Source: Halomonas meridiana
GTDB lineage: Bacteria; Pseudomonadota; Gammaproteobacteria; Pseudomonadales; Halomonadaceae
DNA length: 64,000 nucleotides
Direction: 5' to 3'
NCBI RefSeq assembly: GCF_009846525.1
Contig: NZ_CP024621.1
Span: forward strand, 2,294,001-2,358,000
In this document: positions 40,476 to 43,683 of the stretch, in pieces
Position numbering within the stretch: the first letter of the stretch is position 1
Layout: each line of letters begins with the position of its first letter
Translations under genes and position numbers: made by a program
Notes under the pieces: generated by a model
Database searches by the model: none
Seen by the model: only the letters and a program-made list of their open reading frames with translations
Told to the model about the DNA's origin: nothing

Positions 40476-43199
40476 TTAGCTCAATTTGCCGCAGCACTGC
40501 TTGTACTTCTTACCGGAGCCACATACGCAGGGGTCGTTGCGGCCGACTTTCGGGTTTTCACGACGCAGCGGACGACCATCGGCGCCGGGAGCGGCTTCGC
40601 TCGGCTCGGTATCGGGTGCCTCATGACGGCTAGCAGCCGTCGCCTTCTCACGGGCCAGTTCTTCACGGCGCTTCTGCTCCAGAGCATCGACCTCTTCTGG
40701 CTGACGCACCTGAACGTGGCTGAGAATACGCGTGACATCGGCTTTGATGTTGGTCAACAGATGCTGGAACAGCTCGAAGGACTCGCGCTTGTACTCCTGT
40801 TTGGGGTTTTTCTGTGCATAGCCACGCAGGTGGATACCGCGACGCAAATGATCCATGGACTGCAGGTGCTCTTTCCAGCGGGTATCCAGCACTTGCAGCA
40901 TCACCTGTTTCTCGAAGCGACGAATCAGCGCTTCACCAGCGGACTCGATCTTCGCTTGGTAGGCGTCTCGATGCATGGTTTGCAGACGCTCGCGCAACTT
41001 CTCTTCACTGAAGCGCTCGTCCTCGTCCGCCCACTTAACGACCGGAGCATCGAGATTGAACTCCGTTTTCAGATGCGCTTCCAGACCAGGCAGATCCCAC
41101 TGCTCGGCCAGACTTTGAGGGGGCACGTAGTCGCTAATTGCGTCTTGCATTACCTCCTCTCGAATACCCACCACCGCAGCGGAGACGTCATCAGAGGCAA
41201 GGATTTCATTACGCTGCTCGTAAATCACGCGGCGCTGATCGTTGGCAACGTCATCGTACTCCAGCAGCTGCTTACGAATATCGAAGTTACGCCCTTCTAC
41301 TTTCTTCTGCGCGCGCTCGACCGCATTGGAAACCATCTTGTGCTCGATGGCTTCGCCACGCTCAAGCCCCAGCGCCTGCATCAAGCGCTTCACCCGGTCG
41401 GAGCCAAATAGGCGCATGAGGCTGTCTTCCAGCGAGAGGAAGAAGCGTGTAGAGCCTGGATCGCCCTGACGACCGGCACGACCACGGAGCTGGTTATCGA
41501 TACGTCGAGATTCATGGCGCTCAGAGCCCACCACGTGCAAGCCACCGGCTTCCAGCACCGCATCATGGCGCTTTTGCCACTCGGCTTTGAGCGCATCGAT
41601 TTGAGCTTGCGAGGGGTTGTGCAGCTTAGCGGCCTCAGCTTCCCAGTTACCGCCTAGCATGATATCGGTACCGCGACCCGCCATGTTGGTAGCGATAGTG
41701 ATCGCGCCGGGACGGCCAGCCTGGGCAATAATTTCCGCTTCGCTTTGGTGCTGCTTGGCGTTCAAAACGTTAAATTTCAGCCCAGCCTCACGCATTAGGC
41801 GAGCTAAATACTCAGACGTTTCAATGGAGGCGGTACCCACCAACACCGGGCGACCAGCGTCGGTTTCCGCCTTCACGTCTTTGATGATGGCTTCGTACTT
41901 CTCTTCCGCACTGAGGTACACCAGATCGTTGAGATCCTTACGCGCCAGCGGACGGTTGGTGGGAATGACGATGACATCCAGGCCGTAAATCTGACGGAAT
42001 TCGAACGCTTCGGTATCCGCCGTGCCCGTCATGCCCGACAACTTTTCATACAGACGGAAGTAGTTCTGGAACGTGGTAGACGCCAACGTCTGACTTTCTC
42101 GCTGAACCGTTACTCCCTCTTTGGCTTCGACGGCTTGGTGCAACCCCTCGGACCAACGACGGCCCGGCATCGTGCGGCCAGTGTGCTCGTCGACGATCAC
42201 TACCTGACCTTCGGCGACGATGTAATCCACATCCAGGTGATAGAGATGGCGTGCGCGCAGCGCAGAGTGCATGTGCTGTAACAGGTTGAGGTTTTGCGCG
42301 GCGTAGAGCGACTCGCCTTCGCCCAACAGCCCTTCGGCTCGCATGAGCTCTTCGACTTTGTTGTGCCCCTGTTCGGTCAACTCTACCTGCTTCTGCTTCT
42401 CGTCGAGCACGAAATCGCCGCTTACCGGCGCGTCCTCATCTTCGGAGACTTCTCCCTGCTCGAGCTGCTGGGCGAGGCGGTTGACGATGCCATAGAGGTC
42501 GGTATTTTCATCTACCGCGCCGGAGATGATCAGCGGCGTGCGCGCTTCATCGATCAGGATGGAGTCCACTTCGTCGACAATCGCGTAGTGCAAACCGCGC
42601 TGGACTTTGTCTTCCAGCGAGAACGCCATGTTGTCGCGCAGGTAGTCGAAGCCAAACTCGTTGTTGGTGCCGTAGGTAATGTCACACTGGTACGCGTGAC
42701 GTTTCTCTTCCCCCGTCTGTCCGGCGAAAATAACGCCCACCGTGAGCCCCAGGAATTCATACAGGGGGCGCATCCACTCCGCATCGCGACGGGCAAGGTA
42801 GTCGTTCACGGTCACGACATGCACGCCTTTACGGGTCAGCGCGTTCAAATAGACCGCGAGCGTGGCAACCAGCGTTTTACCTTCCCCGGTTTTCATTTCC
42901 GCGATTCGACCACGATGCAAGGTCATACCACCGACCATTTGCACGTCAAAGTGGCGCATTCCCATGACTCGCTTGCTGGCTTCACGCACCACGGCAAACG
43001 CATCGGGCAGTAGGCTATCCAGCGCTGCCCCGTCGTCTAGGCGCTGGCGCAGTTCTAGAGTTTTCGCTTGAAGCTCGGCATCGCTCAGGCCCGCCAGGGT
43101 CTCTTCCAGCGCATTGATGCTCTGCACGCTTTTCTGCATGCGCTTGACTTCACGGTCGTTCTTGGAACCGACTACTTTACGTAACAAGTTGTTAATCAT
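40476..43199 (-). CDS. secA: Preprotein translocase ATPase SecA
   Basis: Motor of the Sec export pathway, pushing preproteins through SecYEG. The 907-residue protein has Walker [19 protein letters not shown]-like [27 protein letters not shown], and the C-terminal zinc-binding tail [18 protein letters not shown]. The ATG start at 43199 has only a weak GGAA ribosome site. An 118-codon SecM-like reading frame and a hairpin lie immediately upstream, so translational control is plausible. Confidence 0.98.
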
Positions 43200-43217
43200 G
43201 AAATTTCCAAATCATCG

Positions 43218-43242
43218 TGAGCGCCCCATCCAGGTACGCTCA
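43218..43242 (-). promoter_or_regulatory. Stem-loop just upstream of the secA start
   Basis: TGAGCG and CGCTCA form a 6-bp stem with a 13-base loop, ending about 18 bases before the secA ATG and lying between the SecM-like stop and the secA ribosome site. Confidence 0.4.
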
Positions 43243-43277: not shown

Positions 43278-43634
43278 TTATCGAGCAGGCGGGCCACGGG
43301 GCGTCACGACATCGCGGGCAGCGACGAGCGGGAGCGCGAACGGCAGAAAAGACAAAGGGCGACGGGGGGCCTGGGGCGCTCGCCGCGTTTGACGGTGAAA
43401 CCAGCGGCGAAGCGCGCGCCGTTTCTTCGCGATCCAGTGAGATTGGGCGCGAAGCATAGCAGGCATCCAAAAGCAGATGCAGACGCCACGGTCACTACTT
43501 CTCAGTGCGTCGGATGGGTGTAGACTAGCGGGTAATAAACAGCTCACCAGTAAACCAGCCAACCACCAACGCGCTAGGCCATAGCGTCGAGGACGCCTTG
43601 GCGAAGCAGATTCGATCTGTAACGTTGATGACAT
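43278..43634 (-). CDS. Candidate SecM-like secretion monitor (arrest peptide)
   Basis: An 118-residue reading frame directly before secA, on the same strand, 78 bases upstream. It has a basic N-terminus (RRPRRYGLAR), a hydrophobic segment (WWLAGLLVSCLLPASL, about residues 23-38) like a signal peptide or anchor, a basic middle, and a C-terminus of FALPLVAARDVVTPRGPPAR. In E. coli the gene here is secM, which has a signal sequence and ends with an arrest motif containing R-A-G-P. R-G-P-P two residues before the stop, with a phenylalanine 14 residues before the arginine, is similar in kind. Against: the ribosome site is poor (GGGAG 12 bases before ATG), length is shorter than SecM, and nothing has been tested. 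It may be an untranslated frame. Confidence 0.55.
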   Translation of the reverse strand: MSSTLQIESASPRRPRRYGLARWWLAGLLVSCLLPASLHPSDALRSSDRGVCICFWMPAMLRAQSHWIAKKRRALRRWFHRQTRRAPQAPRRPLSFLPFALPLVAARDVVTPRGPPAR

Positions 43635-43655
43635 GCTGTGGACTGGCTCCCGAGC

Positions 43656-43683
43656 GTGTTAGGCTCTGTCTATTGGCGGTCAA
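43656..43683 (-). promoter_or_regulatory. Candidate promoter for the SecM-like gene and secA
   Basis: On the minus strand TTGACC (43683-43678) and TAACAC (43661-43656) are 16 bases apart. The leader to ATG 43634 would be about 14 bases. The -10 match is weak. Confidence 0.25.

Follow-up and report, generated by a model that had tools for sequence, protein, structure and literature searches.

A predicted secretion-monitoring arrest peptide encoded before secA in Halomonas meridiana and its relatives

What is encoded by the short open reading frame (ORF) that stands immediately before secA in Halomonas meridiana, and could it tune secA in the way that SecM does in Escherichia coli? The window, a stretch of 64,000 nucleotides of contig NZ_CP024621.1, had been the subject of an earlier note describing a 118-codon frame on the secA strand directly before secA, with a basic N-terminus, a 16-residue hydrophobic segment and RGPP near the stop, and proposing a diverged secretion monitor. 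Each of these features was confirmed here, and we consider it very likely that the ORF encodes a small predicted exported peptide arresting its own translation at R113-G114-P115-P116, likely raising secA expression when export slows. The arrest peptide is well supported and is new for this genome; its action is predicted from sequence, and it is stalling, release by secretion and induction of secA that we infer. The elements on which the argument turns are listed below, A1 being an alignment and profile built from 25 same-genus proteins, the window's own included.

43278..43634, minus strand: candidate arrest-peptide ORF, 118 codons, ATG start, TAA stop, upstream of secA and kept in relatives.
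40476..43199, minus strand: secA, 907 codons, named by reading; the predicted regulated gene.
43530..43571, minus strand: conserved hydrophobic core of the predicted export signal, codons 22-35 (RWWLAGLLVSCLLP), from hydropathy and from A1 columns that are mostly invariant or nearly so.
43287..43325, minus strand: conserved C-terminal module, predicted to act in arrest, codons 104-116 (VAARDVVTPRGPP), from conservation and a codon test.
43287..43298, minus strand: R-G-P-P, codons 113-116, from the codon test; putative stall site by analogy with toeprints in PMC10987492.

The ORF ends 78 nt before the secA ATG, on the same strand. Its protein carries five Arg in the first 22 residues, reaches its peak hydrophobicity over 16 residues at positions 23-38 (WWLAGLLVSCLLPASL, mean Kyte-Doolittle 1.73), is basic in its middle and has the C-terminus LVAARDVVTPRGPPAR, where a final RGPPAR before the stop places RGPP two residues ahead of the stop codon. 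From the end of the signal (A43, by reading) to P115 there are about 72 residues, which is above the >30-residue criterion for the RQH class of arrest-peptide ORFs and close to the median of 71 residues between signal and arrest site in the short SecM class (PMC10987492). The hydrophobic core RWWLAGLLVxCLLP (43530-43571, minus strand) is more tightly conserved than expected for a signal peptide, and may serve some specialised function in targeting or chain pulling.

Conservation was followed in four overlapping sets of relatives (same-genus, named-locus, 20-genus and protein-collection). In a search of 38 relatives the ORF was found intact before secA in all 25 sampled same-genus genomes, the window's own among them, and the 13 genomes of other families each gave either no match or one no better than chance (E 0.016 or worse). 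The A1 profile matches 185 of 201 sampled family genomes at E 0.01 or better, covering 20 of 24 genera. Among named genomes, from which the best 80 of 164 loci were kept, matches come from records of Vreelandella, Halomonas, Chromohalobacter, Billgrantia, Litchfieldella, Onishia and Halovibrio, those nearest to the window's locus being Vreelandella, a member of the Halomonadaceae. R-[G/A]-P-P closes the conserved C-terminus in 25/25 same-genus loci, lies close to the end in 79 of the best 80 named loci (78 RGPP, 1 RAPP) and is present in 28/28 loci spanning 20/20 genera (25 RGPP, 3 RAPP, all three in genus g20). The ORF precedes secA in 25/25, 79/80 and 28/28 loci of these sets, respectively; secA starts 15-210 nt after it, on the same strand, in all 28 loci of the 20-genus set, and the gap is 39-104 nt in the 24 same-genus loci other than L025. 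RAPP takes the place of RGPP in g20 (L294, L295 and L296) and in Halomonas litopenaei (L131). The sole exception among the named loci, L097 (Halomonas olivaria TYRC17), matches over residues 1-70, after which the frame departs, and no secA start was called there; the frame break may be a sequencing error. A related V. olivaria record, L082, has an intact ORF. A large protein collection yielded 210 relatives among 7,991 candidates scored. Among the matches listed (120 of 210), 118 have RGPP and two frames lack it; readable organism names are Halomonas, Vreelandella, Halovibrio (also of the Halomonadaceae), Litchfieldella, Billgrantia and 'Halomonadaceae', with the exception of one metagenome-assembled genome labelled Pseudomonadota bacterium, and the named entries are 'hypothetical protein' or 'uncharacterized', with one 'secreted protein'. 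Had close relatives failed to keep the frame or RGPP, the earlier note would have counted its reading as refuted; both are retained, and the motif extends across 20 genera. Since frame and RGPP have survived in relatives, the secretion-monitor reading is well supported by sequence.

The pattern of substitutions points to the same module. With the 25 same-genus loci aligned by codon and compared in pairs, none of 1,200 comparisons at the RGPP codons was non-synonymous and 54.7% were synonymous, which is the silent-site excess that the earlier note had proposed to test for at a conserved C-terminal RGPP. Non-synonymous differences amount to 18.9% in the arrest block (residues 103-116) and 17.4% in the signal region (21-45), rise to 37.8% in a moderately conserved block at residues 46-75, and reach 76.9% in the spacer (76-102) and 87.0% in the two residues past RGPP; spacer and tail are free in both sequence and length among loci. 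Because RGPP is free of non-synonymous change while the spacer stands at 76.9%, selection, as judged from the codons, is acting on the peptide itself, and RGPP is its most constrained part. In the ORF, variability is 0.576 at third codon positions against 0.317 at first and 0.269 at second positions. A chance ORF was ruled out by conservation together with this codon pattern, that is, because the frame is intact in 25/25 same-genus genomes and third positions vary about twice as much as first and second ones.

The ORF family fits the RAPP-like RQH arrest peptides. Fujiwara et al. 2024 (PMC10987492), who looked for ORFs of this type in >30,000 genomes, named a group uA_RQH_Pseudomonadales located upstream of secA, of which the tested member has R109GPP and arrests E. 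coli and B. subtilis ribosomes (PURE) with fAP above 0.9. The Halomonas ORF has the same motif in the same slot before secA, and what that search looked for is what is seen here: a short ORF of unassigned function on the same strand ahead of a sec or yidC gene, in this case secA, with a C-terminal motif conserved in homologues. The class also calls for an N-terminal secretion signal or TM segment, for which the candidate here is the basic N-region with its conserved 16-residue hydrophobic stretch. The motif Arg falls at residues 107-114 across the window's genus, and R109GPP itself recurs in a relative, P0075 (Halomonas subglaciescola). GTDB places the Halomonadaceae in Pseudomonadales. Since no other family of the order was found to have such an ORF, in one to a few genomes sampled per family, and P0075 carries R109GPP, the Halomonadaceae family is probably uA_RQH_Pseudomonadales, an identity reached by inference because the main text of PMC10987492 gives no species name for the tested member. 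RAPP-like peptides share no overall similarity (PMC10987492). Of all tetrapeptides, RGPP is reportedly the one most under-represented in 10 major bacterial groups (PMC12992588). Its reporter read-through in the contexts of ApcA and SecM is below that of RAPP or RAGP, and when RGPP is placed in SecM it arrests more strongly than the native RAGP (PMC12992588). On published accounts, ApdA from Actinobacteriota and ApdP from Alphaproteobacteria (PMC10987492) have the R-A/G-P-P core in common with the Halomonas ORF. A word search of the main text of Sakiyama et al. 2021 (PMC7897499) found mention of neither Halomonas nor RGPP, and a full-text literature search returned no paper on an arrest peptide, SecM or translation arrest in Halomonas or Halomonadaceae.

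From these systems a mechanism can be proposed. RQH peptides stall the ribosome with the third motif residue in the P site (toeprints, PMC10987492), so that by analogy the stalled ribosome would have P115 in its P site and P116 in its A site. The model adopted for the Halomonas peptide is that of the cryo-electron microscopy structures of ApdA and ApdP, in which the A-site Pro is held by the RAP at the end of the chain and peptide-bond formation is blocked (PMC10951233); here, too, the corresponding chain end would hold the A-site Pro, and the bond would not be formed. With the Sec machinery working, a pull on the signal sequence would release the stall; with export failing, the stall would be prolonged and the stalled ribosome, again by analogy, would alter the downstream mRNA such that more secA is translated. 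This last step was examined in the RNA between the ORF and secA, where two elements stand out, the second of them tentative:

43206..43208, minus strand: GGA, putative core of the secA Shine-Dalgarno sequence, 6 nt ahead of the secA ATG; its T-G-G-A columns are invariant in the 35 rows of alignment A2.
43219..43241, minus strand: GAGCG...CGCTC, which may form an RNA hairpin in the interval separating the ORF from the secA ribosome site.

A2 comprises the window and 34 of 52 distinct loci. The hairpin of the genus, GGGCG/CGCTC (GAGCG/CGCTC in the window), drawn by hand as a five-pair stem, is paired in 92% of cells over the 35 rows, and its pairing exceeds that of slid versions of the whole structure. 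A single Rfam match, at 15.7 bits against a gathering score of 40, was discarded, leaving no known RNA element.

Several observations weigh against an arrest peptide that controls secA. When E. coli and B. subtilis proteins carrying RAPP-like motifs were tested, the majority did not arrest efficiently (PMC10987492), so the motif alone is no proof. The N-terminal export signal is predicted on hydropathy and conservation alone. Six of the 25 same-genus relatives weakly match DUF4328 in Pfam (best E 8e-4); for the window protein itself there is no Pfam match at E up to 10, nor a match in NCBIfam. Covariation in the hairpin was not above shuffles in the 35 aligned rows. When a stalled ribosome was represented by a mask in a folding model of 78 loci, openness of the secA site went up in 26 and down in 26 (p 0.55), and an upstream control mask opened the site more often (up in 36, down in 15 of 78). 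The output step therefore finds no RNA support here. In SecM a stem-loop hides the secA ribosome site and the stall opens it; here a hairpin may be present, but the mask had no average effect in the 78 modelled loci and gave no consistent opening.

Other explanations of the conserved frame have nevertheless to account for the rest of the evidence. The ORF might encode a small secreted protein with an extracytoplasmic function of its own that merely happens to lie before secA, its C-terminus being a binding or processing motif. The near-equal constraint on the signal-like segment and the arrest block, and the moderate conservation of residues 46-75, are what such a protein might leave behind, but the strongest constraint falls on R-G-P-P, a known stalling motif avoided in proteomes, spacer and tail are free to vary in sequence and length, and the ORF sits before secA in nearly every locus of the three sets; we regard this explanation as improbable. 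An even smaller chance is given to the C-terminal conservation being that of an RNA element, for instance a GG-CCC codon stretch pairing with GGGC upstream of secA. The only consensus helix found by RNAalifold, of four pairs, does join the RGPP codons to that GGGC, yet its bases are mostly fixed by the amino acids, none of the four pairs has changed on both sides, third positions of the RGPP codons vary (0.547) with first and second ones unchanged, and folding has no consistent effect on the secA site. In one same-genus locus, L025 (G009), the ORF is extended 44 codons beyond RGPP and ends in a stop codon that overlaps the secA ATG (gap -4), a sign of possible translational coupling there. A plain coupling leader, in which secA is opened simply because the ORF is translated, with no arrest involved, would however leave the invariant RGPP and the signal segment unexplained, and the other 24 same-genus loci have gaps too wide for such an overlap (given above); as a general explanation we hold it to be no less remote than the RNA element.

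If the ORF is an arrest peptide, is it a diverged SecM? The likeness to E. coli SecM lies in the slot before secA, the signal sequence, the Arg-x-x-Pro end and the likely role. The arrest motif of SecM, F-x4-W-I-x4-G-I-R-A-G-P (PMC10987492), is absent: the Halomonas ORF has RGPP instead of RAGP and lacks F-x4-W-I-x4-G-I. A separate origin is likely. Pfam holds a SecM family, and none of the 25 same-genus proteins, the window's included, matches it at E up to 1. Homology to SecM was rejected for want of a match in these Pfam searches, that of the window protein at E up to 10 included. The part of the earlier note that called the ORF a monitor acting by arrest thus stands as well supported by its sequence, whereas the kinship with SecM that 'diverged' implied does not, the ORF being accounted for by one change on a SecA tree among outside relatives that mostly bear a different gene in the slot. 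Its origin looks independent of SecM.

That different gene encodes an M23 peptidase. We surveyed the slot before secA in 126 loci, namely 4 of the family with the ORF, 16 of the family without it, and 106 of 109 non-family genomes with a secA match (the first 156 residues of SecA were matched in 113/115 genomes of the order); short contig ends occur in two of the surveyed stretches, L200 and L236. All 16 family genomes without the ORF (L170-L185; genera g16, g18, g35 and g37) match an M23 peptidase query before secA, three of them having been checked in Pfam as Peptidase_M23, and so do 77 of the 106 genomes from other families of the order. No credible RGPP or RAPP ORF was found before secA in those 106 genomes, which represent one to few genomes per family. 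Two candidates in other members of the order were set aside: an 89-residue frame in L229, which sits inside an ABC-transporter-like frame (by reading), and a RAPP frame in L154, which ends 326 nt off and is without evident similarity. Looser motifs (RSPP and others) occur in a few frames among the 126 loci. On a SecA tree of 74 rows, drawn from 29 of the 80 named loci and 45 of the 46 loci L140-L185 (L182 being too short), presence of the ORF is a single change with SH-aLRT 99, a value from a quick method without bootstrap. The family is not one clade on this tree, where its M23-bearing rows occupy two separate positions and many of the deeper branches have weak support. Most simply read, the ORF was gained once and the M23 gene lost from the slot, and the tree would place the single birth of the gene in the ancestor of most genera of the family. 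The full statement, that the monitor originated a single time, in the common ancestor of most genera of the Halomonadaceae, at the place of the M23 gene and independently of SecM, and that RGPP has stayed nearly unchanged (RAPP in few) while most of the peptide diverged, apparently without a conserved stem-loop over the secA site, we judge to be evenly balanced between right and wrong. Relocation of the peptidase within the genome was considered and rejected: the window genome has partial M23 matches alone, at five other places, of at most 44% identity and all to the C-terminal part. Compared by eye, the N-terminus of the M23 protein showed no evident resemblance to the arrest peptide. In the same genome no arrest ORF was seen before secD or yidC; a YajC-like frame (by reading) precedes secD.

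Upstream, the ORF is followed on the opposite strand by a dciA-like gene (PF05258), and two further elements lie before its start codon:

43647..43650, minus strand: Shine-Dalgarno-like GGAG, 12 nt ahead of the ATG.
43652-43667, minus strand: conserved stretch agagcctaacacgctc, directly before GGAG, between the ORF and the divergent dciA-like gene, similar in many loci and possibly promoter sequence.

The earlier note had counted a poor ribosome site as the weak point of the ORF. The upstream comparison used 78 of the best 80 named loci (L097 was excluded and L118 had no start called), and the distance from the GGAG to the ATG is 12 nt in 75 of them and 11 nt in 2, the GGAG being absent in 1. 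The spacing is long yet conserved, and this conservation answers the objection.

A switch of this kind is already known in other bacteria, and the present analysis would extend secretion-monitor control of secA to the family of Halomonas and Vreelandella, which is used in industry. It would also be a clear-cut example of an arrest peptide whose gain can be mapped on a tree, along with the gene that occupies its slot elsewhere. That a four-residue motif has outlasted most of the peptide around it fits the published idea that RAPP-like motifs have repeatedly seeded arrest peptides.
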